Part shown: piece by piece, positions 8,053-59,937 of the stretch
Position numbering within the stretch: the stretch's first letter is position 1
Layout of the letters: every line of letters begins with the position of its first letter
Assembly: GCF_004216535.1 (NCBI RefSeq)
Contig: NZ_SGWX01000001.1
Location: 3,286,001-3,350,000 of the forward strand
Length of the DNA: 64,000 nt
Direction of reading: 5' to 3'
DNA from: Xylanimonas ulmi
Lineage (GTDB): Bacteria; Actinomycetota; Actinomycetes; Actinomycetales; Cellulomonadaceae
Translations under genes and position numbers: made by a program
Notes under the pieces: model-generated
What the model was told of the DNA's origin: nothing
What the model saw: only the letters and a program-made list of their open reading frames with translations
The model's database searches: none

Positions 8053-11007
8053 GTGACCACCTCCTCGCCCACGCCCTACGACCCCGACCGCTTCGCCGAC
8101 CGCCACGTCGGGGTCTCGGACGGCCAGGCGATGCTCGCCGTGCTCGGCTACCCCTCGCTCGACGCGCTCGTCGACGCCGCGGTGCCCGCAGCGATCCGCA
8201 CGCGCCGCCCTCTCGACCTGCCCGCCGCGCGCACCGAGGCGCAGGTGTTGGCCGACCTGCGCGGGCTCGCGGCGAAGAACCAGGTCAAGCGGCAGATGAT
8301 CGGCCTGGGCTACTACGGGACGCACACGCCCGCCGTCATCCGCCGCAATGTGCTCGAGTCCCCCGCCTGGTACACCGCCTACACGCCCTACCAGCCCGAG
8401 ATCAGCCAGGGCCGCCTGGAGGCGCTGCTGACCTTCCAGCAGGTGGTCGAGGATCTGACCGGGCTCGAGGTCGCTGGGGCGTCGCTGCTCGACGAGGCCA
8501 CCGCGGTCGCCGAGGCCGTCGCGCTCATGTGGCGCGCCTCGCGCGCGACGTCGGGCTACGTGGTGCTCGACGCCGACCTGTTCCCCCAGACCCTCGCCGT
8601 CGTGCGCGGCCGGGCCGAGGCGATCGGCCTGCCCGTGGTGGTCGCGGCGCTCGACGGCGGACTCGCCGCCGTGCTCGACGGCGCGCTGCCCGACGGCGAC
8701 CTGGTCGGCGTCGTCATCGCCCAGACCGGGGCGAGCGGTCGCGTGCTCGACGCGCGCGAGGTCGTGGCCGAGGCCAAGGAGCGCGGCGCCCTGGTCACCA
8801 TGGCGACCGACCCGCTCGCGCTGACGATGCTGGCCTCGCCCGGTGAGCTCGGCGCCGACGTCGCCGTGGGCTCGGCGCAGCGGTTCGGCGTCCCGCTGTT
8901 CTACGGCGGCCCGCACGCCGCCTACATCGCCGTGCGCAAGGGCCTGGAGCGCCAGCTCCCGGGTCGGCTGGTCGGCGTCTCGGTCGACGCCGACGGCGCG
9001 ACGGCGTACCGCCTGGCCCTGTCGACGCGCGAGCAGCACATCCGCCGCGAGCGGGCGACCAGCAATATCTGCACCGCCCAGGCCCTGCTGGCGATCGTGG
9101 CCGCGATGTACGCCGTCCACCACGGCCCAGACGGCCTGCGCGCGATCGCGCAGCGCACGCACGCCCACGCGGCCGCGCTGGCCGACGCGCTGCGCGCCGC
9201 GGGGATCGCCGTCGAGCACGAGGCCTTCTTCGACACCGTGCGCGCCGTCGTGCCGGGCCGTGCCGCCGCGATCGTCGCGGCCGCGAGCGAGGCCGGAGTC
9301 AACCTGTACAGCCCTGATGCTGACCATGTACAGATCGCGTGCGACGAGACGACCACCCCCGAGGACGTCGCCGCGGTGCTCGCGGCGTTCGGCGCGGCGC
9401 CCACCACGCCGTCGTTCACCACGCCGGCCGGCGCGGACCTGCCGCCCGCGCTGCTGCGCCGCACGCCGATCCTGACGCACCCGGTCTTCCACCAGCACCG
9501 CTCGGAGACCGCGCTGCTGCGCTATCTGCGGACGCTGAGCGACAAGGACCTCGCGCTCGACCGCACCATGATCCCGCTCGGCTCATGCACCATGAAGCTC
9601 AACGCGGCGGCCGAGATGGAGGCCATCAGCTGGCCCGGCTTCGCCGACCTGCACCCGTACGCGCCCGTCGAGCAGGCGTTGGGCTACGCCGCGCTCATCG
9701 CGACGCTCGAAGCGCAGCTCGCCGAGATCACGGGGTACGCGGCGGTGTCGGTGCAGCCCAACGCCGGCTCGCAGGGCGAGTTCGCGGGGCTGCTCGCGAT
9801 CAGGGGCTACCACCGCTCGCGCGGCGAGGGTCGCCGCGACATCGTGCTCATCCCGGCCTCCGCGCACGGCACCAACGCGGCGTCGGCGGCGCTCGCGGGG
9901 CTGCGGGTCGTCGTGGTGGCCACCGCCGCCGATGGCGCCATCGACCTCGGCGACCTGCGCGCGAAGCTCTCCGAGCACGGCGAGCGTGTGGCGGCCATCA
10001 TGATCACCTACCCTTCGACGCACGGCGTCTACGAGGAGCACGTGCGCGAGGTCTGCGACCACGTACATGCGGCAGGTGGGCAGGTGTACATCGACGGGGC
10101 GAACCTCAATGCGCTCGTCGGCCTGGCCCGTCCCGCCGAGCTCGGCGGCGACGTCTCGCACCTGAACCTGCACAAGACGTTCTGCATCCCGCACGGTGGC
10201 GGCGGGCCCGGTGTCGGGCCGGTCGCGGTCGCGGCGCACCTGGCGCCGTTCCTGCCCGCCTCGCCCGTGGGGGTCTCGACAGGCTCGACCGCCGGGGAGG
10301 GCTCGACCGCCGGGGAGGGCGCGACCGGCGGGGAGGGCTCGACCGGCGGGCCGGTGCCCGCGCCGGTGAGCGCCGCGCCGTTCGGCTCGGCCGGCATCTT
10401 GCCCATCTCCTACGCCTACGTCGCCCTCATGGGCCCCGACGGGCTCACCCAGGCGACCAAGGCCGCCGTGCTGAGCGCGAACTACGTCGCCGCGCGCCTC
10501 GCGCCGCACTACCCCACGCTCTACACGGGCCCGCACGGCCTGGTCGCGCACGAGTGCATCCTCGACCTGCGGCCCCTGACGGCGGCGAGCGGCGTCACGG
10601 CCGAGGATGTGGCCAAGCGGCTCATGGACTACGGCTTCCACGCCCCGACGCTCGCGTTCCCTGTGCCGGGCACGCTCATGGTCGAGCCCACCGAGTCGGA
10701 GGACCTCGCCGAGCTGGACCGGTTCGTCGCGGCGATGATCGCGATCCGCGCGGAGATCGACGCCGTCGCGGACGGGGTCTGGCCCGCCGACGACAACCCC
10801 TTGCGGGGCGCCCCGCACACGGCGGCGGCGGTCACCGCCGACGAGTGGACCCACCCCTACGGGCGTGAGCTCGCCGCCTACCCCGTGGCGTCGTCGCGCG
10901 CAGCGAAGTACTGGCCCCCGGTGCGGCGCATCGACGCCGCACGGGGCGACCGCACGCTGATCTGCGCCTGCCCGCCCGTCGAGTCGTACGCGACGGCGAC
11001 CTCATGA
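8053..11007 (+). CDS. gcvP: glycine dehydrogenase (decarboxylating), P-protein
   Basis: The 984-residue single-chain P-protein decarboxylates glycine and passes the aminomethyl group to lipoyl-GcvH. [21 protein letters not shown] and [14 protein letters not shown] are N-half signatures. The PLP Lys lies in [17 protein letters not shown] near residue 707. Start GTG 8053 lies just behind the riboswitch. An odd segment sits at residues about 740-766, between ASPVG and [18 protein letters not shown]. It reads VSTGSTAGE and then hexapeptide repeats, where relatives have a short surface loop. It is encoded by a palindromic-repeat copy plus an 18-bp tandem repeat. The gcvP stop overlaps an in-frame ATG leading into gcvT. 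Confidence 0.97.
10270..10292 (+). repeat. degenerate copy of the 23-bp palindromic repeat inside gcvP
   Basis: This copy matches the window's 23-bp repeat (GTGGTT-N11-AACCAC; core TCGACAGGCTC) at 19 of 23 positions, including the whole core. It encodes the VSTGST peptide in gcvP. Confidence 0.75.
10283..10350 (+). repeat. 18-bp tandem repeat inside gcvP
   Basis: There are about 3.8 copies of an 18-bp unit, GCTCGACCGCCGGGGAGG with small changes, encoding [18 protein letters not shown] and GSTGG. It grows out of the 3' half of the adjoining palindromic repeat. The unit is a multiple of three, so the frame is kept. Confidence 0.9.
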
Positions 11008-28260: not shown

Positions 28261-31200
28261 TCACCAGCCGTTGGGCGCGAGTGTCTTGCGGATGCGCTTC
28301 TCGCTGACGGTGCCGTCCGTGCCGAGCTGCTGCGCGAAGAGGCTGACGCGCAGCTCCTCGATCTGCCAACGGGCCTCGGCGAGCTCGGCCGCGCGGATGG
28401 GGTCGGCCGGGCCTGCGGCGTACGTGGCGCGCGCCTTGGCGTACGCCTCCTCGACGTCGTGCGCGCGCCAGGCCAGCTCGGCGTCGCGGTGGGGGTTGGC
28501 CTGGGCCTTCTCCAGCCGGTGCGACGCCGCGCGCAGGTAGCGCACCAGGTGCGGCAGCCGGCGCGGGGGAGTCGCGCTGACGAAGCCGTTGTGCACCAGT
28601 GTGGCGGCGTGGTCGCGGATGTCCTGCAGGGTGTTGAGCAGGGCGAGCGACGACGTCGCCCGGACCTCTCCCTCAAGCGTGCGCCAGGCCGCCAGCGCGG
28701 CGACGACGTGGCCCGCCACGCGGTAGGTCTCGTCCTCCAGGTGCTGACGCACATGCGCCGTGGCGGTGCTGTACGTCTCGGAGTCACGAATCTGTACAGC
28801 GTCGACGCCCGCAGGGGTTCCTGGTCCGAGCGCGACATCGCCGCTGGTCAGCGCGATGACGGCCGCGAGCTGGAGGTCGTCGGCCAGGAGGTCGGTCGTG
28901 CGGTAGGGGCTCGCTGCGAGGGTCAGCGCTTGCCTGCCCGTCCAGCGCGACGTGACGCGGGCGGGCGCGAGCCGGTTCTCGGCGAGCAAGAGACGGCGCA
29001 CGCCGCGCGCGTGCGCGCCCGGCTGCGCGGTGGCGTCGGCCAGGATGCGCAGCGCCACGGTCGGCTCCGCTCGCGGGCCCGGCTCCTCGACCAGGGCCGG
29101 GTAGCCGCGCACGACGACGCCGCCACCCAGGTCGCTCGACACGACCTCGGGGAGGCGGCCGTCCGGCAACCCGTCGGGCCACGTCGTCAGGCCGGTGCGC
29201 TCGGCGACGACGGGGGCGGCGGGCGCGCTTGCACCCGCCCCCGAACCCCCGTCGCGGGCGCCGGAGCGTGGGCCGGCGGCGGCGCCGGTGGGCGGGGCGG
29301 ACGCGGCGCCGGCCCCGCCGGAGTTGCCGGTCGGGCGAGAGTCCGCGGACGCGTCCGAGTCGGCCGCGCGCGCCCCCGAGGCCGCGCTCGTCTTGGCGCG
29401 AGCCTCCTCCAGCGCGATCCCGACGGCGCCCTTGACAGCCGCGCGCACCGCCGCCTCGGCCTGCGCGGCCAGACGGCGCTGCAACGCCAGCAGGTCCTTG
29501 GACTCATCGAGCACGGCGGCGACGCGGTCGCGGGCCCGGCGGGCCTGGCCCGCGCCGCCCGCGCCGCCCGCAGAGCCCGGACGGGACCCGGCCGCCGAGC
29601 CTCCGGCGTCCTCGACCCGGAACGTCACCCGAAGGTGCGCGGGCAGCCGCTCGACGCGCTCGGCGTCCCACGCGTCATCAGGCACGACGACGTCGCGCAG
29701 CGCCCGCACCGCGCGCGTGAAGGCCACCGCGAACGGCTCGGCCATGTCGCCCGCCCGGGCCATGTCCTGCCAAGCGGGAGTGTTCTCGCGCAGCCACGCC
29801 GCGACGGCCGCGCCGACGTCGGGCGCGGGCACGAGTTGCACGCGCACCGGCTTGGGCAGCGAGCGGATGGTCGCGACGCACAACTCGTCGAGCAGGCCCG
29901 GCACCATCCAGTCGAACCCCGACGGCGACAGGCGCGGGAGGATCGACAACGGCACGTGCACGGTGACGCCGTCGGCGTCCTGGCCGGGACGGAACTGATA
30001 GGTCAACGGCAGGGTGACCTCGCCCTGCGTCCACGACGACGGGAACTGCGCCGGGTCCACGGCCTCGACGTCGACCAGGTCCTCCAGGCGGAACGTCAGC
30101 AGGTCCGGGGTCTGGCGGCGCGCCCTCGACCACCAAGTGTCGAAGTGCCGCGCACTGACCACCGACGCCGGCACACGCTCGTCGTAGAAGGCGAACAGGT
30201 CGTCCTCCGAGGCGACCAGCCCGCGCCGACGCGAACGCGCCTCGACCTGCTCGGCCTCCTCCAGCAGACGCCGGTTCTCGGCGAAGAACCGGTGGTGGGT
30301 GGTCCACTCGCCCTGCACGAGCGCGTGGCGCACGAACATCTCGCGCGCGGCCTCGGGATCGACCTTGGCGAACAGCACGGGCCGGTCCGCCACGATCGGC
30401 ACGCCGTACAGCAGCACCTTCTCGGTGGCCATCGCGGCGCCCTGCTTGGTCGACCAGTGCGGGTCGGAGTAGGTGCGCCGGGCCAGGTCGCCCGCGAGCG
30501 CCTCGACCCACTCCGGCTGGACGCGGGCCACGTCGCGCGCCCACAGGCGCGAGGTCTCGACGAGCTCGCCCGCCATGACCCAGGCCGGGGGCTTCTTGGA
30601 CAGCGGCGAGCCGGGGAAGATCGCGAACCGCGCGCCGCGGGCGCCCAGGTACTCGTTGCGGGCGCGCTTGGCCTGCTGGCGCAGGGCGCGGGCGCGGGCC
30701 TCGCCCTTGAGGTGCGCGACCGACGACGCCTTGATCTCGCCCGTGTCCTGCATGCCGATCTGCGACAGCAGGCCGGACAGCAGGGCGCGGTGCACGGTCT
30801 CGCCGGCCCACTCGCGCCGCAGCTCGCCGCGCGCGGGGCCGCCGGTGGTGGGGGCTGCGGCAGTGGGGGCTGCGGCGGTGGGGGTGTTCGGGGTGGTTTC
30901 GACAGGCTCAACCACCGGGGGCGGGTCAACCACCGGGGGCGGGGCGGCCGCGGGGGTGGGGCGGCGTCCGGCGGAGAGGTTGATGCCCAGGTCGTTCGAC
31001 ATCTGTCGCAGCTGCTGGACGACGTCCTGCCACTCGCGCACGCGCAGGAAGTTCAGGTGCTCGGCCTTGCACAGTCGGCGGAACGCCGACCCGCTGAGCT
31101 CGCGCTGCTGCTCGCGCAGGTACTCCCACAGGTTGAGGTAGGCGAGGAAGTCCGACGTCGGGTCGGCGAACCGCGCGTGGAGCTGGTCGGCCCGCTCGCG

Positions 31201-32931
31201 CACCTCGGCGGGGCGCTCGCGGGGGTCCTGCACCGACAGCGCCGCGGCGACGACGGCGACCTCGCGTGCGACGCCGAGCCGCGCGCCCTCGATGATCATG
31301 CGCGCCAGGCGCGGGTCCATGGGCAGCGCGGCGAGCTGGCGGCCGACGTCGGTGAGCGCCGTCGTCGTGCCGTCCGGGGAGGTCTCCAGGGCGCCGAGCT
31401 CGCGCAGCAGCGTGACGCCGTCGCGCACGGCGCGCGTGTCGGGCGGCTCGACGAACGGGAAGCGGGCGACGTCGCCGGGCGCGGCGACCACGCCGACGGC
31501 GATCATCTGCAGCAGCACGGACGCGAGCGAGGTGCGCAGGATCTCCGGCTCGGTGTACTGGGGGCGGGCGTCGAAGTCGTCGCGCGAGTACAGGCGGATC
31601 GCGACGCCGTCGGCCACGCGCCCGCAGCGGCCCGAGCGCTGGTTGGCGCTGGCCTGCGAGATCGCCTCGATGGGCAGGCGTTGCACCTTGGTCGCCTTGG
31701 AGTAGCGCGAGATGCGCGCGAGCCCGCTGTCGACGACGTAGCGGATGCCGGGCACGGTCAGCGACGTCTCGGCGACGTTGGTCGACAGCACGATGCGCCG
31801 GCCCGGGTGTGAGGCGAACACGCGGTGCTGCTCGGCGGCCGACAGGCGTGAGTACAGCGGCAGGATCTCGACGTGCTGGGGGTGGCGGGGGTCGCGCGCG
31901 CGGGCGCCGAGGTGGCCGTCGAGCGCGTCGAGCGCGTCGTGGATCTCGCGCTCCCCCGACAGGAACACCAGGATGTCGCCCGGCCCGCAGGTCATGAGCT
32001 CGTCGCACGCCTCGACGATCCCTGTGACCAGGTCCTTCTCCTCGCCCTTGCCCTTGCGCAGGCCGGATGCGGGGTCCGTCTCGGGCGCCAGCGGGCGGTA
32101 GCGGACCTCGACCGGGTAGGTGCGCCCCGAGACCTCGACGACGGGCGCCGCCTGGGGCAGCACCTCGACGACGGCGTCGGGCGCCCCGCCGACCTGGGCG
32201 AGGTGGGAGGGGGAGAAGTGCTCCGCGAACCGCTGCGAGTCGATGGTCGCCGAGGTGATGACGACCTTGAGGTCGGGCCGGCGCGGCAGCAGGCGCGAGA
32301 GGTAGCCGAGCAGGAAGTCGATGTTGAGTGAGCGCTCGTGCGCCTCGTCGATGACGATCGTGTCGTAGGCGAGCAGGTCCGGGTCGCGCTGGATCTGCGC
32401 GAGCAGGATGCCGTCCGTCATGACCTTGACGAGCGTGCCCTCGCTCGACTGGTCGGTGAACCGCACCTGATAGCCGACGACCGTCCCCAGGGCGCCTGGG
32501 CCGCTGATCTCCTCGCTGATGCGCTCGGCGACCGAGCGCGCGGCGATGCGGCGCGGCTGGGTGTGGCCGATCTGCCCGGCCCGGCCGCGGCCCAGGTCGA
32601 GCAGGATCTTCGGCAGCTGCGTCGTCTTGCCTGAGCCGGTCTCGCCCGCGACGACGACGACCTGGTGGTCGGCGATGGCGCGCGCGATGTCGGCGCGCCG
32701 CGCGCTGACGGGCAGCTGCTCGGGGTAGGTGATCGGGGGCACGACGACGTCGGCGCGCGCGGCGGCGAGCTTGTCCAGGTGGGCGCGTGAGACGCGACGG
32801 GGGCCGGCGGTCGAGCGGCGGGCGCCGCGGCGGCGGGTGGCACGGGCCTGGCTCGCCCGCCGGGCGCCCGAGGCGGGCGGGGGCGCCGAGGCGCCCTCGG
32901 TGGGCTGCGGGTGGGAGGCGGGAGTGCTCAC
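28261..32931 (-). CDS. hrpA: ATP-dependent RNA helicase HrpA
   Basis: The 1,556-residue DEAH-box helicase has AGETGSGKTTQLPK (motif I), TQPRRIAARSVAER (Ia), VIDEAHERS (II), ITSATIDSQRF (III) and STNVAETSLTVPGIRYVVDSG with NQRSGRCGRV (V and VI). The ratchet, OB and HrpA-specific DUF3418 C-terminal regions follow. HrpA in other bacteria processes or rescues stalled ribosomes and mRNA. The start is a GTG with GGGAGG 3 bp upstream. At residues about 650-690 it carries low-complexity AAAPT repeats and a palindromic-repeat copy encoding PPPVVEPVETT. A second Ala/Gly-rich insert lies near 1160-1240. It is longer than E. coli HrpA (about 1,300) because of these. Confidence 0.95.
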   Translation of the reverse strand: MSTPASHPQPTEGASAPPPASGARRASQARATRRRGARRSTAGPRRVSRAHLDKLAAARADVVVPPITYPEQLPVSARRADIARAIADHQVVVVAGETGSGKTTQLPKILLDLGRGRAGQIGHTQPRRIAARSVAERISEEISGPGALGTVVGYQVRFTDQSSEGTLVKVMTDGILLAQIQRDPDLLAYDTIVIDEAHERSLNIDFLLGYLSRLLPRRPDLKVVITSATIDSQRFAEHFSPSHLAQVGGAPDAVVEVLPQAAPVVEVSGRTYPVEVRYRPLAPETDPASGLRKGKGEEKDLVTGIVEACDELMTCGPGDILVFLSGEREIHDALDALDGHLGARARDPRHPQHVEILPLYSRLSAAEQHRVFASHPGRRIVLSTNVAETSLTVPGIRYVVDSGLARISRYSKATKVQRLPIEAISQASANQRSGRCGRVADGVAIRLYSRDDFDARPQYTEPEILRTSLASVLLQMIAVGVVAAPGDVARFPFVEPPDTRAVRDGVTLLRELGALETSPDGTTTALTDVGRQLAALPMDPRLARMIIEGARLGVAREVAVVAAALSVQDPRERPAEVRERADQLHARFADPTSDFLAYLNLWEYLREQQRELSGSAFRRLCKAEHLNFLRVREWQDVVQQLRQMSNDLGINLSAGRRPTPAAAPPPVVDPPPVVEPVETTPNTPTAAAPTAAAPTTGGPARGELRREWAGETVHRALLSGLLSQIGMQDTGEIKASSVAHLKGEARARALRQQAKRARNEYLGARGARFAIFPGSPLSKKPPAWVMAGELVETSRLWARDVARVQPEWVEALAGDLARRTYSDPHWSTKQGAAMATEKVLLYGVPIVADRPVLFAKVDPEAAREMFVRHALVQGEWTTHHRFFAENRRLLEEAEQVEARSRRRGLVASEDDLFAFYDERVPASVVSARHFDTWWSRARRQTPDLLTFRLEDLVDVEAVDPAQFPSSWTQGEVTLPLTYQFRPGQDADGVTVHVPLSILPRLSPSGFDWMVPGLLDELCVATIRSLPKPVRVQLVPAPDVGAAVAAWLRENTPAWQDMARAGDMAEPFAVAFTRAVRALRDVVVPDDAWDAERVERLPAHLRVTFRVEDAGGSAAGSRPGSAGGAGGAGQARRARDRVAAVLDESKDLLALQRRLAAQAEAAVRAAVKGAVGIALEEARAKTSAASGARAADSDASADSRPTGNSGGAGAASAPPTGAAAGPRSGARDGGSGAGASAPAAPVVAERTGLTTWPDGLPDGRLPEVVSSDLGGGVVVRGYPALVEEPGPRAEPTVALRILADATAQPGAHARGVRRLLLAENRLAPARVTSRWTGRQALTLAASPYRTTDLLADDLQLAAVIALTSGDVALGPGTPAGVDAVQIRDSETYSTATAHVRQHLEDETYRVAGHVVAALAAWRTLEGEVRATSSLALLNTLQDIRDHAATLVHNGFVSATPPRRLPHLVRYLRAASHRLEKAQANPHRDAELAWRAHDVEEAYAKARATYAAGPADPIRAAELAEARWQIEELRVSLFAQQLGTDGTVSEKRIRKTLAPNGW
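30893..30915 (-). repeat. 23-bp palindromic repeat inside hrpA
   Basis: This is a full copy of the GTGGTT-N11-AACCAC element with core TCGACAGGCTC. Read in hrpA it encodes VVEPVETT at residues about 672-680, in a linker between conserved blocks. Confidence 0.9.
30908..30943. repeat. 18-bp tandem duplication at the hrpA repeat
   Basis: Two exact copies of TCAACCACCGGGGGCGGG lie head to tail. The first copy begins inside the palindromic repeat. In hrpA they encode PPPVVD and PPPVVE. Confidence 0.92.
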
Positions 32932-53831: not shown

Positions 53832-54950
53832 TCACAGCGACTGCGCCAGCGCCGCGAGGAATCCCGCCACGTCGCTGTCGCTGGTTGCCCAGCCACACAT
53901 CCACCGCGCCTCGACGCGCTCGGGGCTCTCCCCGTCGGCCCAGTTGTAGAACAGCGTCCGGGCCCGCAGGCGGTCGGCGGCGTCGCGGGGGAGCGTGGCG
54001 AAGACGGCGTTGGCCTGCGTGGGGCGCGTGAGTCGCACGACGTCGCCGCCCAGGGCCTCGACGCCGGCGCGCAGACGCGCCGCGGCGGCGTTGGCGGCGG
54101 CCGCGTTGCGCCACCACAGCGGCGCGGTGGTTGAGCCTGTCGAGACCACCGGGGTTCCCGGCTCGCCCAGCAGGGCGAGCAGCTGCGCGCTGACGTACCG
54201 CGTCTTGGAGGCGAGCTGCATGGTCGACTTGCGCAGGTACGGCACGGCCGCAGCCGCCGCCCGGCGCGCGGCCGCGGCGCCCGGGGTCGGGGCGTCGTCG
54301 GGCCCCAGCACCACGACGGCCTCGCCCAGCAGGCCGCCGTTCTTCGCCGCGCCCAGCGAGACGATGTCGACGCCGACGTCGGTGGTCAGCTCCCGCAGGC
54401 CCACTCCCAGGAACGCGGCGGCGTTGGCCAGCCGCGACCCGTCGACGTGCACCGCGAGCCCCATCGCGTGCGCCGCCTCGACGAGCGCGCGCAGGTCCTG
54501 CGTGCGGTAGACGGTGCCGAGCTCGGTGGACTGCGTGAGCGTCAGCACGGCGGGCTGCGCGCGGTGCACGTCGCCGAGCTCGCCCGCCCACGCCTCGATG
54601 TCGCCGACTGTGAGGCGCCCGTGCGCCGTCGGGCGCGTGAGCACCTTGAGGCCGCCGACGCGCTCGGGGGCGCCGCCCTCGTCGGTGTTGAGGTGCGCGA
54701 CGTCGGAGGCGACGACTCCGGCCCAGCGCGACGTCGTCGCCATGAGCGCGACGACGTTGGCGCCCGTGCCGTTGAGCACCGGGAACGCCGCGGCCCCGGC
54801 GCCGAACACCTCGCGCACGCGCTCGGCGAGGCGGGCCGTCCAGGGGTCCGCGCCGTAGGCGACGGCGTACCCCTCGTTGGCCTGCGCGATCGCGGCGAGC
54901 ACCTCGGGGTGCGTGGGGGCGTAGTTGTCGGAGGCGAACGGCGGCAGCAC
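53832..54950 (-). CDS. threonine aldolase family protein (beta-eliminating lyase)
   Basis: The 372-residue fold-type I PLP enzyme has FASDNYAPTHPEVLAAI, LNGTGANVVALMA, the cofactor Asp in AVHVDGSRLANAA and the Schiff-base Lys in SLGAAKNGGLLGEAVV. It cleaves L-threonine/allo-threonine to glycine and acetaldehyde, or a related beta-hydroxy amino acid. At residues about 267-275 it holds VVSTGSTT, encoded by a palindromic-repeat copy, between the small-domain helices (LLALLGEPGTP and LWWRNAAAANAAAARL). Starts at GTG 54950. Confidence 0.9.
   Translation of the reverse strand: MLPPFASDNYAPTHPEVLAAIAQANEGYAVAYGADPWTARLAERVREVFGAGAAAFPVLNGTGANVVALMATTSRWAGVVASDVAHLNTDEGGAPERVGGLKVLTRPTAHGRLTVGDIEAWAGELGDVHRAQPAVLTLTQSTELGTVYRTQDLRALVEAAHAMGLAVHVDGSRLANAAAFLGVGLRELTTDVGVDIVSLGAAKNGGLLGEAVVVLGPDDAPTPGAAAARRAAAAAVPYLRKSTMQLASKTRYVSAQLLALLGEPGTPVVSTGSTTAPLWWRNAAAANAAAARLRAGVEALGGDVVRLTRPTQANAVFATLPRDAADRLRARTLFYNWADGESPERVEARWMCGWATSDSDVAGFLAALAQSL
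54127..54149 (+). repeat. 23-bp palindromic repeat inside the threonine-aldolase-like gene
   Basis: This is a full copy of the element GTGGTT-N11-GACCAC with core GAGCCTGTCGA. It differs from the hrpA copy at one base and encodes VVSTGSTT on the minus strand. Confidence 0.9.
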
Positions 54951-56319: not shown

Positions 56320-59300
56320 GTGTACCTGATCGGTGACGACCTGGTGCTGTCGGCGAGCGACCTGACAGCCGCAGCGACCTGCGAGCTCGCGTTCCTGCGC
56401 TCGCTCGACGCGCGGCTCGGCCGCATCCCGGACCCGCCCGCAGCGGACGATCCGATGCTCGCGCGCACCGCGTCGCTCGGGCAGCGGCACGAGCTGCGTG
56501 TGCTGCGCGAGTACGAGGAACGGTTCGGGTCCGCGCGCCCGGCGAACGAGGGCGGCGGCGGCGTCGTCGTGGTCGACCGGCCCGCGCTGCGTGACCCCGA
56601 CGCCGTCGGCGCGGCGCTCGCGGCCACGCGCGCGGCGTTCGACGCGGGCGCCGACGTCGTCTTCCAGGCGATGTTCGCCGAGCCGCCCGCCACGGGTCCC
56701 GACGGTGGCGCGCGCCCGGGCTTCGTCGGGTTCGCCGACTTCGTGGTGCGCGAGCCCGACGGGCGCTACCGCGTGCAGGACACCAAGCTCGCGCGGCACG
56801 CGCGCGTCACCGCGCTGCTGCAACTGGCCGCCTACGCCGGGCGGCTGCGCGCGCTGGGCGTGCCGGTCGCCGACGAGGTCGACCTGGTGCTCGGCGACGG
56901 CGCGCGCAGCACGCACCGGCTCGCCGACGTCGAGCCGGTCTACCGGCTGCGGCGCGCGCACCTCGAACGCCTCGTCGCCGACCACCTCGCCGACCCCGGT
57001 CCCGCCGCGTGGGGCGACGCGCGCTGGTCGGTGTGCGGGCGGTGCGCGGTGTGCGACGCCGAGGCGACCGCCCACCGCGACGTCCTGCTCGTGGCGGGAC
57101 TGCGGGCCAGCCAGCGGGCGCGGCTCGCCGCGGTGGGCGTCACAACCATCGACGGGCTCGCGGCGTCGTCGGGCGCGGTCGAGGGCATCGGCCAGGCGAC
57201 GCTCGACACGCTGCGCGAGCAGGCGGCGCTGCAGATCGAGTCGGAGGCGGGCGGGGCGGCGCGCGCGCCCGTGGTGCGCGTCGTCGACCCGCAGGGGCTC
57301 GCCGTGATCCCCGAGCCCGATGAGGGCGACGTGTTCTTCGACTTCGAGGGCGACCCGCTGCACACCGAGGGCGACGGCACGCGGTGGGGGCTCGACTACC
57401 TCTTCGGGCTCGTGGAGGCGGACGGGACGTTCCGGGCCTGGTGGGCGCACTCGTTCGACGAGGAGCGGCGCGCGCTGCTCGGATTCCTCGACTACCTGCG
57501 CGAGCGCCGCCTGCGGCACCCGGGCCTGCACGTCTACCACTACGCCTCCTACGAGCGCACGCACCTGCTGGCGCTCGCGGCCCGGCACGGCGTCGGCGAG
57601 CAGGAGGTCGACCAGATCCTGCGCGAGCACGTGCTGGTGGACCTCTATCCGGTGGTGCGCCGGTCGGTGCGCGTGGGCAGCCGGTCCTACTCGATCAAGA
57701 AGCTTGAGCCGTTGTACATGGGCGACGACCTGCGCTCGGGCGACGTGCAGACCGCCACCGCCTCGATCGATGAGTACGCCGCGGCGCGTGACGCGCTCGC
57801 GCGCGGCGACGAGGAGCGGGCCCGCGCGCTGCTCGACGCCATCGCCGACTACAACGCCTACGACTGCCGCTCGACGCTCGCGCTGCGCGACTGGCTCCTG
57901 GGGCTCGCGCGCGAGCGCGGCGTGACCCCGGCGCCCGTGGCCGAGCCGGCGCCCGGGCCCGAGGTCGAGGCCTCGCCGCTCGCGGCCCGGCTCGCGGCGC
58001 TCGCGGGCGACCCGCTCGACGCCGACCGCACCGCGGACCAGCGCGCGCTCGGGCTCGCCGCCGCCGCGATCGACTACCACCGGCGTGAGCAGAAGTCGTT
58101 CTGGTGGGGGCACTACTCGCGGCTCGTCGAGCCGCTCGCGGACTGGGCCGCCACGCGCGACGTGCTGCGCGTCGAGGGCGTGCGCGTGGTGCGCGACTGG
58201 TACCGCGAGGGCCGCCAGCGCACCGACCGGCGGCTGCTCGAACTGCGCGGCGAGTGGGCGCCCGGCTCACGCCCGACCGCAGGCGGCCAGGCCTACCTGC
58301 TCTACGAGCACCCCGGCCCGTACCCGAACCCGGCGGCCGACCCTGGCGCGCGCTCGGCGCGGACCGTGCGCGTGGTCGAGGCGCTCGACGACGGCGCGGT
58401 GCTGGTCGAGGAGACGCTGCCGGCCGGGGTCGAGTCGCATGCGATGGTGCCCAGCGCGCTCACGCCGGGGCCGCCGCCGAGCGCGGGGTCCCAGGTGGGC
58501 GCCATCGAGGAGTGGGCCCAGCGCCTGATCGACCCCGCGGTGGTTGAGCCTGCGGTGGTTGAGCCTGTCGAAACCACCCGGACCGACCGTGGAGTGGTTT
58601 CGACAGGCTCAACCACCGCGGGAGATCACCCCGGGTGGCCGCGTGACGCGGTGGTCGACGTGCTGCGGCGCGTCCCGCCGCGCACGCGTTCGGGCGCCCT
58701 GGCGCCCGTCGTGGTCGGTCCGGACGGCGAGGGCGACACCCTGAGCGCGGTCGTGGCGAGTGTCGCCGACCTCGACCACTCCTACCTCGCGGTTCAGGGG
58801 CCGCCCGGCACCGGCAAGACCTACCTGGCCGCGCGCGTCATCCGCGCGCTCGTGGAGCGGCGGGGGTGGCGCGTCGGCGTCGTCGCGCAGTCGCACGCCG
58901 TGGTCGAGAACGTGCTGGACGGCGTGGTGCGAGCAGGGCTCGACCCCGATCTGGTGGGCAAGGAGCCCGCCGACGCCGAGGCCGAGCACGCCTTCACCGC
59001 CGTGCCCCGCGCGCAGTACGCGGCGTTCGCCGCCGAGCGTGCGAGCAGGGGGTGCGTGCTGGGCGGCACGGCGTGGGACTTCTCGAACGTCGACCGGGTG
59101 GAGCGGCGCTCGCTCGACCTGCTCGTGGTCGACGAGGCGGGTCAGTACTCGCTGGCCACGACCATCGCGGCGAGCGTCGCCGCGCGCAACCTGCTGCTGC
59201 TCGGTGACCCGCAACAGCTCCCGCAGGTCTCACAGGGCACGCACCCCGAGCCGGTGGACACCTCGGCGCTGGGCTGGGTCACCGACGGGCACGACGTGCT

Positions 59301-59937
59301 GCCGCCCGAGCTCGGCTACTTCTTGGCCGCGAGCCGGCGGATGCACCCGCAGGTCTCGCGGCCGGTGTCCGAGCTGTCGTACGAGGGCCAGTTGCACTCA
59401 CACCCGACGGCGTCGCTGCGCGATCTCGACGGTGTCTCACCGGGGCTACACCTGCGGCCCGTGCGGCACACGGGGCGGTCGACCGAGTCCCCCGAGGAGG
59501 CCGCCGAGGTCGTCGCGATCGTCCGCTCGCTCGTCGGCAGGAGCTGGCGCGCGGGGCCGGGCGGCGCGGGTCCCGACAGCGCTGCGCGCGCGCTCACCGC
59601 GGCGGACGTCGTCGTGGTGACGCCCTACAACGCGCAGGTGCAGTGCGTGCGCGCCGCGCTCGACGCCGCCGGGCTGGGCGAGGCGAGGGTGGGGACCGTC
59701 GACAAGTTCCAGGGGCAGGAGGCCGCGGTCGCGATCGTGACGCTCGCGGCGTCGGACGCGGGCGAGGCGCCGCGCGGCATGGAGTTCCTGCTGATGAAGA
59801 ACCGCCTCAACGTGGCGATCTCACGCGCGCAGTGGGCCGCGTGGCTGGTGTGGAGCCCCGCGCTGCTCGACCACCTGCCCTCCACACCGGCCGCGCTGGC
59901 GCAGCTCAGCGCGTTCGCGCGCCTCGTGGACGCGTAG
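56320..59937 (+). CDS. TM0106-type RecB-like nuclease fused to AAA helicase
   Basis: The 1,205-residue protein has an N-terminal RecB-like nuclease of the TM0106 family (about 1-330: LSASDLTAAATCELAFLRSLDARLG, YRVQDTKLARHARVTALLQLAAYA). An RNase H-like domain (about 335-530, FFDFEGDPLHTEGDGTRWGLDYLFGLV) follows. A superfamily-1 helicase completes it: Walker A QGPPGTGKT near 826, VDEAGQYSLAT near 935, LLGDPQQLPQV and TVDKFQGQEA. It probably processes DNA or RNA ends. Residues about 741-766, between the nuclease and helicase, are encoded by palindromic repeats. Start GTG 56320. Confidence 0.9.
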   Translation: MYLIGDDLVLSASDLTAAATCELAFLRSLDARLGRIPDPPAADDPMLARTASLGQRHELRVLREYEERFGSARPANEGGGGVVVVDRPALRDPDAVGAALAATRAAFDAGADVVFQAMFAEPPATGPDGGARPGFVGFADFVVREPDGRYRVQDTKLARHARVTALLQLAAYAGRLRALGVPVADEVDLVLGDGARSTHRLADVEPVYRLRRAHLERLVADHLADPGPAAWGDARWSVCGRCAVCDAEATAHRDVLLVAGLRASQRARLAAVGVTTIDGLAASSGAVEGIGQATLDTLREQAALQIESEAGGAARAPVVRVVDPQGLAVIPEPDEGDVFFDFEGDPLHTEGDGTRWGLDYLFGLVEADGTFRAWWAHSFDEERRALLGFLDYLRERRLRHPGLHVYHYASYERTHLLALAARHGVGEQEVDQILREHVLVDLYPVVRRSVRVGSRSYSIKKLEPLYMGDDLRSGDVQTATASIDEYAAARDALARGDEERARALLDAIADYNAYDCRSTLALRDWLLGLARERGVTPAPVAEPAPGPEVEASPLAARLAALAGDPLDADRTADQRALGLAAAAIDYHRREQKSFWWGHYSRLVEPLADWAATRDVLRVEGVRVVRDWYREGRQRTDRRLLELRGEWAPGSRPTAGGQAYLLYEHPGPYPNPAADPGARSARTVRVVEALDDGAVLVEETLPAGVESHAMVPSALTPGPPPSAGSQVGAIEEWAQRLIDPAVVEPAVVEPVETTRTDRGVVSTGSTTAGDHPGWPRDAVVDVLRRVPPRTRSGALAPVVVGPDGEGDTLSAVVASVADLDHSYLAVQGPPGTGKTYLAARVIRALVERRGWRVGVVAQSHAVVENVLDGVVRAGLDPDLVGKEPADAEAEHAFTAVPRAQYAAFAAERASRGCVLGGTAWDFSNVDRVERRSLDLLVVDEAGQYSLATTIAASVAARNLLLLGDPQQLPQVSQGTHPEPVDTSALGWVTDGHDVLPPELGYFLAASRRMHPQVSRPVSELSYEGQLHSHPTASLRDLDGVSPGLHLRPVRHTGRSTESPEEAAEVVAIVRSLVGRSWRAGPGGAGPDSAARALTAADVVVVTPYNAQVQCVRAALDAAGLGEARVGTVDKFQGQEAAVAIVTLAASDAGEAPRGMEFLLMKNRLNVAISRAQWAAWLVWSPALLDHLPSTPAALAQLSAFARLVDA
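58537..58566. repeat. 15-bp tandem duplication next to the palindromic repeats
   Basis: GCGGTGGTTGAGCCT occurs twice in tandem. It equals the outer half of the 23-bp element. In the helicase gene it encodes AVVEP twice. Confidence 0.92.
58552..58619. repeat. inverted pair of palindromic repeats inside the nuclease-helicase gene
   Basis: Two full copies of the 23-bp element (58555-58577 and 58594-58616) lie in opposite orientation, with perfect 26-bp arms (58552-58577 and 58594-58619) and a 16-bp loop. Together they encode VVEPVETT and VVSTGSTT in one linker. This is a REP-doublet arrangement, embedded in coding sequence without breaking the frame. Confidence 0.95.

Follow-up and report, generated by a model that had tools for sequence, protein, structure and literature searches.

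A REP-like palindromic repeat dispersed behind genes, and in one frame per orientation within them, in Xylanimonas ulmi

Enterobacterial BIMEs consist of inverted palindrome pairs separated by a short spacer. The uptake sequences of Neisseria and Pasteurellaceae form inverted pairs behind genes and have a preferred frame in coding DNA. As described in the main text of one REP survey, the GTAG/CGTC REPs are short palindromes that occur as dimers, mostly <20 bp behind genes in convergent or unidirectional arrangement, and the GTAG members often provide a TAG stop codon (PMC3733652). According to the same source, intragenic REPs are sometimes found in DNA repair genes, recB among them, and the intragenic repeats of Rickettsia conorii are identified with RPE-4 and RPE-6, RPE-1 being called longer (PMC3733652). 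In-frame palindromes are already known from Rickettsia and from intragenic REPs, as that survey records (PMC3733652). The phyla listed there for these REPs do not include Actinobacteria, nor is the word used in its main text (PMC3733652).

Here we describe a repeat with a unit of about cGGTGGTTGAGCCTGTCGAAACCACC in the genome of Xylanimonas ulmi. The window, by which we mean the whole 64-kb stretch of DNA analysed (74% G+C), belongs to a single-contig genome of 3,965,098 bp. Two complete copies of the repeat are located in a gene for a nuclease-helicase, with the following features:

56320..59934, strand +: TM0106-family RecB-like nuclease (with RNase_H_2) plus AAA_11/AAA_12-type helicase parts, 1205 aa (Pfam and NCBIfam scans; open frame)
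58537..58567, strand +: 15-bp tandem, 2.1 copies of GCGGTGGTTGAGCCT (Tandem Repeats Finder)
58552..58619, no strand: large inverted repeat with perfect 26-nt arms (inner arms 58552-58577 / 58594-58619, by reading)
58555..58577, strand +: full copy, GTGGTTGAGCCTGTCGAAACCAC (exact match; phase 0; encodes VVEPVETT)
58578..58593, no strand: 16-nt spacer between both palindromes (measured beside other +/- pairs)
58594..58616, strand -: full copy, reverse complement of GTGGTTGAGCCTGTCGAAACCAC (exact match; phase 0; encodes VVSTGSTT in the gene frame)

The first-pass annotation had described two full 23-bp copies in opposite orientation with perfect 26-bp arms, a 15-bp duplication, insert lengths that keep the frame, and both orientations open, and all of this is confirmed. 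Pattern matching in the window finds both copies exact at these coordinates. The inverted-repeat arms (58549-58577 / 58594-58622) extend to 29 nt with 97% complementarity, their inner 26 nt being perfect, and the 15-bp tandem represents an incomplete unit 5' of the first full copy. The host ORF stays open from 56320 to its stop despite the insert, and the two orientations read VVEPVETT and VVSTGSTT. The entire repeat region in the gene spans 58537-58622, and the insert corresponds to residues ~739-767 of the protein, outside the nuclease (TIGR03491, residues 96-526; RNase_H_2, 338-526) and the AAA helicase parts, which begin at ~811. The 100-nt stretch around the 58552-58619 inverted repeat has an RNA fold of -73.1 kcal/mol (z -10.7), and an Rfam scan of 58300-58900 returned microRNA models only, far under their gathering scores. 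Most probably, the insert serves as a neutral spacer of ~31 residues. The X. ulmi genome also has a second nuclease-helicase paralogue, 55% identical (G000:C1:2747083-2750622).

Sequence comparison shows that the repeat is missing from this linker in orthologues outside the genus. None of 32 named orthologue loci, mostly from Microbacteriaceae, has a repeat copy there; their linkers are compact (e.g. IVDAQPGWPRD), and that of X. ulmi is ~31 residues longer. We also aligned the nuclease gene of the window at the DNA level with five related genes, from the Promicromonosporaceae MAG Nt197P3bin111 (G001), G005, G008, Xylanimonas cellulosilytica (G010) and Xylanimonas oleitrophica (G027). The linker is without the repeat in G008, G001 and G027, and in G005 it is long, of different sequence and has no recognisable copy. 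In X. cellulosilytica the same linker contains three copies, two of them exact and the third with 4 mismatches. The absence of the segment from the linker in 32 of 32 named orthologues and in G008, G001 and G027 points to an insertion. Conservation of the linker in all orthologues, which the first-pass annotation had named as the result that would speak against its reading, is not what we find, yet X. cellulosilytica shares the insert. By-eye comparison with X. oleitrophica is suggestive of the 16-nt spacer being ancestral target sequence.

Other parts of the same gene carry related elements. The X. cellulosilytica gene (L160) contains another cluster at residue ~310-400, made up of five copies and additional half-units, which is absent at that place in the X. 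ulmi gene. Two of the 32 orthologue loci (L121 and L139) carry variant cores outside the linker. The variant of G001 (L121 5567-5589), at residue 523, encodes VVELVETA in phase 0, and a variant in the orthologous gene of G016, a member of another genus (L051 ~1210-1232), reads SVEPVETS, also in phase 0; both sit where the RNase H part ends. Altogether, repeats have entered the nuclease gene at three different linkers across four species, with an identical frame throughout. The linker before the helicase in L051 additionally reads STGSGQRPSTGE, which resembles a different repeat.

At ≤3 mismatches, the 23-mer occurs at 203 places in the X. ulmi genome (97 forward and 106 reverse), against 0 forward and 0 reverse for a control consisting of the 23-mer read backwards, and no match was found in 100 shuffles of the window. 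The objection anticipated at the outset, that the 23-mer might not be enriched in the genome, is thereby answered. Three further places in the window carry the repeat or parts of it, the first two being the only other ones at ≤3 mismatches:

30893..30915, strand -: same repeat, exact, in frame (VVEPVETT), between the HA2_C and OB domains in the DEAD/DUF3418 helicase gene 28264-32931 (-)
54127..54149, strand +: same repeat with 1 mismatch, read in frame in the minus orientation, in the beta-eliminating lyase gene 53835-54950 (-)
10270..10350, strand +: degenerate minus copy (4 mismatches) and, after it, an 18-bp half-unit repeated 3.8 times, both in frame within ORF 8053-11007

The half-unit array of the last entry occupies 10282-10350, and its ORF was taken by eye for the glycine dehydrogenase GcvP.

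Placement was surveyed from the best 100 of the 203 places, which form 61 clusters; 60 stretches were analysed, with gene calls from a codon HMM that was trained on the window's long ORFs and agrees by eye with the ORF list over 50-64 kb. In all, 69 clusters contain a copy at ≤1 mismatch; of these, 41 lie in intergenic DNA, 20 are coding and 8 are at gene ends. Since 91% of the window is coding, compared with 20 of the 69 clusters, coding DNA is strongly avoided. The earlier impression of a repeat that has colonised coding DNA thus stands insofar as real in-frame copies exist in other genes, but these constitute the minority. The 49 intergenic or end-touching clusters lie between convergent genes in 23 cases, unidirectional genes in 23 and divergent genes in 3. 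Copies behind 69 gene ends have a median distance of 15 nt, and four genes end at a TGA stop supplied by a repeat copy. Adjacent copies are paired in +/- order in 24 instances and in -/+ order in 5, and the spacers of 18 of the 24 +/- pairs measure 15-18 nt, with sequences that appear unrelated by eye. The orientation near stop codons (54/65) cannot serve as a test, since a +/- pair lying between convergent genes is counted twice; a by-eye count in unidirectional contexts gives ~15/21. In the flank profile of 109 copies, C is found in 86% at -2 and G in 100% at -1, followed by GTGGTT. A shared duplicated target, of the kind looked for in a MITE, is not seen in this profile, where a duplication varying from site to site is invisible, and the relatives, ~80% identical, are too diverged for reading insertion junctions.

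The repeat is therefore repetitive, palindromic, paired in +/- order with a spacer of similar length and varying sequence, and concentrated just behind stops. Placement behind stop codons is equally expected from terminator selection. The first-pass label of a REP/BIME-type element describes well a repeat that is dispersed, palindromic, paired and located behind genes; it does not extend to a RAYT, a tag or a common spacer sequence, none of which was found.

Copies inside genes display a strict choice of frame. In 19 of the 20 coding clusters found from the best 100 of the 203 places, every copy is in phase 0, so that the plus orientation reads VVEPVETT and the minus orientation VVSTGSTT, or close variants; L065, for instance, has both copies in phase 0 and reads LVEPVETT and VVSTGSTT. 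The frame and orientation of the genomic copies, which had been proposed as a check, accordingly show one frame per orientation. The twentieth cluster, L097, overlaps the opening codons of a SpoU-methylase gene; its plus copy is in phase 0, its minus copy in phase 1, and the true start of this gene may lie behind the repeat cluster. All nine single-copy coding clusters have the plus orientation, and the copy at 54127, outside this set, the minus orientation. When the 23-mer is read in all six frames, five prove open, and the unused alternatives, one plus and two minus frames, give WLSLSKP, WFRQAQP and GFDRLNH. Hydrophobic products such as WLSLSKP likely explain why the other frames go unseen. 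That 19 of the 20 clusters keep to a single frame for each orientation suggests that copies were inserted and then strictly filtered.

The host genes encode LigD, a proline dehydrogenase/aldehyde dehydrogenase, two riboflavin synthesis domains, ScpB, an Fpg-type glycosylase, a NuoG-type protein, an HRQ1-type helicase, thymidylate kinase, a class I tRNA synthetase, ABC proteins and the DUF3418 helicase, and Pfam still recognises the host domains with the insert present. We tabulated 18 proteins, comprising 17 of the 20 coding hosts and the lyase gene of 54127, while L065 (no Pfam hit), L097 (unclear) and L098 (first-domain limits not shown) were excluded. The insert lies outside Pfam/NCBIfam domains in 14 of the 18, with 6.1 expected (p 0.0001, simulation); a smaller table of 16 proteins gave 13 vs 5.8 expected. 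The codons of the repeat are rare: in the training set of the HMM, GTT, CCT and GAA account for 1%, 4% and 4% of their amino acid, and the five codons GTT, CCT, GAA, ACA and TCA for 1-6%, which disfavours selection on the peptide. One frame per orientation, positions mostly outside domains and rare codons together argue for a sequence that was inserted or is maintained at the DNA level, and not selected as protein.

The abundance of the repeat varies greatly among relatives. Core counts in 11 genus genomes range from 0 to 600, with 600 in X. cellulosilytica, 253 in X. ulmi (G000), 5 in G005, 5 in G008 and 2 in G006; G009 and G007 likewise belong to the repeat-rich genomes. The 64 kb of X. cellulosilytica syntenic with the window contain nine clusters; six are coding according to the HMM, with all copies in phase 0, and a seventh is in the 1329-aa nuclease frame, which the HMM failed to call as a gene. 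Two of the nine (nuclease linker and DUF3418 helicase) are at places that are occupied in the window and seven are not, so the pattern may in part be ancient and simply retained. At the helicase site (30893), X. cellulosilytica has copies at the homologous place and G008, G005 and G027 have none, while the flank gave no match in G001. Of the 6 genomes compared, only that of the window has the copy at 54127. In 464 kb of G005 we found one copy at ≤4 mismatches, and none of 9 sites with both flanks found holds a copy. Half-unit arrays also occur in X. cellulosilytica.

Beyond the genus, a degenerate 19-mer has an exact match in 7 of 396 genomes of the phylum, and cores combined with other stems are frequent in G033 and G016 and also occur in G078 and G076. 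The 25-mer is found exact in the Arthrobacter plasmid NZ_CP012477.1, whose record has it at 6 places, and sequences 92-95% like it occur in two plasmids of the spirochaete Treponema saccharophilum (E-values 0.1 and 0.4). Judging by sequence resemblance, the hairpin family may span phyla. A 32-kb IMG/VR viral contig (L172 8837-8859) contains an exact repeat copy.

Folding of the 27-nt hairpin gives z about -2.5 as RNA and -3.1 as DNA, and a single-copy 3' site of X. ulmi (L111), at z -0.5, folds no better than shuffles. Stem covariation was assessed for the family GAGCYTGTCGA on 75 distinct 21-mers from G033, G016, G078 and G076 with 500 shuffles. The innermost (53, shuffle maximum 52) and third (54, maximum 53) pairs narrowly exceed all shuffles, and the second (45, maximum 49), fourth (41, maximum 50) and fifth (41, maximum 53) fall within them, in a set that includes chance matches. 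Of the 8 genomes searched, the rows listed include none from G000, G004 and G041 and one from G010, and the search pattern excludes the canonical unit of G000, which has T where the pattern has G or C. Covariation of this kind hints, weakly, at a conserved hairpin. Gaps with repeats in X. ulmi fold at z -7.9, -8.9 and -0.5 and one without repeats at -3.7, and homologous gaps in G005 fold at -2.6, -6.8, -0.4, -11.1 and -3.3; these mixed scores make no case for the idea that the repeats are stand-ins for ordinary terminators.

We consider it probable that the repeat is a dispersed family of REP-like palindromes, with no recognisable RAYT, that multiplied in a Xylanimonas-type actinobacterium and is tolerated behind genes and as a protein spacer in one frame. 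New copies would be laid down by a trans-acting process on the hairpin, and the copying enzyme would be something other than a recognisable Y1/RAYT transposase. Copies would persist where they are harmless: behind genes, where the hairpin could terminate transcripts or stabilise their 3' ends, and within genes only at sites that can tolerate a hydrophilic spacer. Slippage would account for the half-unit tandems only. A more doubtful formulation, possible at best, sees a RAYT-less REP-type hairpin copied by a hairpin-acting enzyme or replication process and generating protein linkers and C-terminal ends across several actinobacterial genera. Inverted pairs would then arise with a ~16-nt gap of unrelated, perhaps pre-existing target, and the hairpin would offer hydrophilic octapeptides in both orientations and, in a third frame, a stop codon.

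A classical RAYT-driven REP/BIME, whose transposase has either disappeared recently or diverged beyond the reach of the models, is unlikely. The placement, dimers, repeat-supplied stops and intragenic copies match the GTAG/CGTC REPs as far as the survey describes them (PMC3733652), and the repeat has the properties of a RAYT-associated REP in being a short dispersed palindrome of many copies that is found mainly behind convergent or unidirectional genes. The REP-associated transposase, for which the first-pass annotation had suggested a search, did not appear: PF01797 (RAYT/Y1), which detects 5 of 14 control genomes, matched 0/1 in the X. ulmi genome, 0/11 in the genus genomes (4 of the 11 being <90% complete) and 0/9 in other carriers, and NF047646, with signals in 6 of 14 control genomes and above cut-off in 1, matched 0/11 in the genus. 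X. cellulosilytica, 99% complete and with the highest core count, is among the genomes with neither match. The GTAG/CGTC tag, which marks two REP super-families in the survey (PMC3733652), is absent at the repeat foot in 109 copies. Untagged and with no RAYT found, the repeat thus fails two defining tests of RAYT-associated REPs despite its REP-like anatomy and placement. Nine genes flanked by repeats on both sides comprise eight from non-transposase Pfam families and one 61-aa call without match. Reverse transcriptase (PF00078) was found in 1 of the 11 genus genomes, G006, and was rejected as mobiliser: its sole carrier has a core count of 2, which leaves no link to copy number.

It is quite unlikely that the repeat is a selected sequence-specific recognition site, uptake-like or protein-binding, that is not copied, with pairs doubling as terminators and the frame resulting from tolerated peptides. 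The 23-mer remains exact although its flanks diverge, and the inverted pairs behind genes and the single frame in coding DNA are features in which the uptake sequences of Neisseria and Pasteurellaceae behave alike. However, the repeat amounts to ~one copy per 16-20 kb, and uptake sequences are far denser than this; the core count varies from 0 to 600 inside one genus, and the ~31 extra residues in an elsewhere compact linker indicate insertion and not drift by point mutation. Local slippage and template switching at hairpins alone, without trans-acting mobility, would fit the 15-bp tandem described here, the 18-bp array at 10282-10350 and the half-unit arrays of X. cellulosilytica, but is very improbable as the full explanation, being unable alone to spread an exact 23-mer into 61 separate clusters in both orientations; slippage as a secondary process is likely true. 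Selection of VVEPVETT and VVSTGSTT as peptides of an evolved functional linker is hardly credible: the two (with close variants) are indeed encoded by 19 of the 20 coding clusters, but in codons used for 1-6% of their amino acid, by DNA that is mostly found in identical form outside genes and is absent from the linkers of orthologues.

The dispersed REP-like palindrome that we favour represents a countable case of a short palindrome of mobile type inside conserved enzymes with the frame kept. Its host group is unlisted in the REP survey, as far as the phyla named there go (PMC3733652), and the standard transposase is missing here. The question of what copies REP-like hairpins without a RAYT thereby becomes testable, as does that of such repeats being a steady source of new protein linkers. 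For annotation, VVEPVETT and VVSTGSTT stretches in these proteins should be read as repeat-derived. In open-licence full texts, we found no match to a 20-mer of the repeat and nothing that joins REP, Actinobacteria and RAYT, or likewise for Cellulomonas; searches with four 12-mers of the repeat (open-licence, title and abstract opening) gave no paper on a bacterial genomic repeat among the matches listed.

Compared with the known systems, the repeat of X. ulmi is in each case similar in part. It resembles BIMEs in its inverted pairs with a short spacer, but the spacers of its 24 +/- pairs are similar in length with a sequence not common to the pairs. With uptake sequences it shares the inverted pairs behind genes and the favoured frame in coding DNA, and differs from them in being sparse, longer, apparently inserted whole, and very variable in number within the genus. 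Like RPE, known here by description only, it comprises in-frame palindromes inside genes for functional proteins, inserted in an ORF with the frame kept and absent in orthologues; it is, however, 23-27 bp long and has no CGTC tag. The GTAG/CGTC REPs, as characterised in the survey, are alike in their short dimeric palindromes close behind genes, supplied stop codons and intragenic copies, and unlike in that the X. ulmi repeat goes without a tag and without a RAYT and keeps to one frame per orientation. As far as the literature searches go, an untagged, RAYT-less actinobacterial repeat with one frame per orientation is new.
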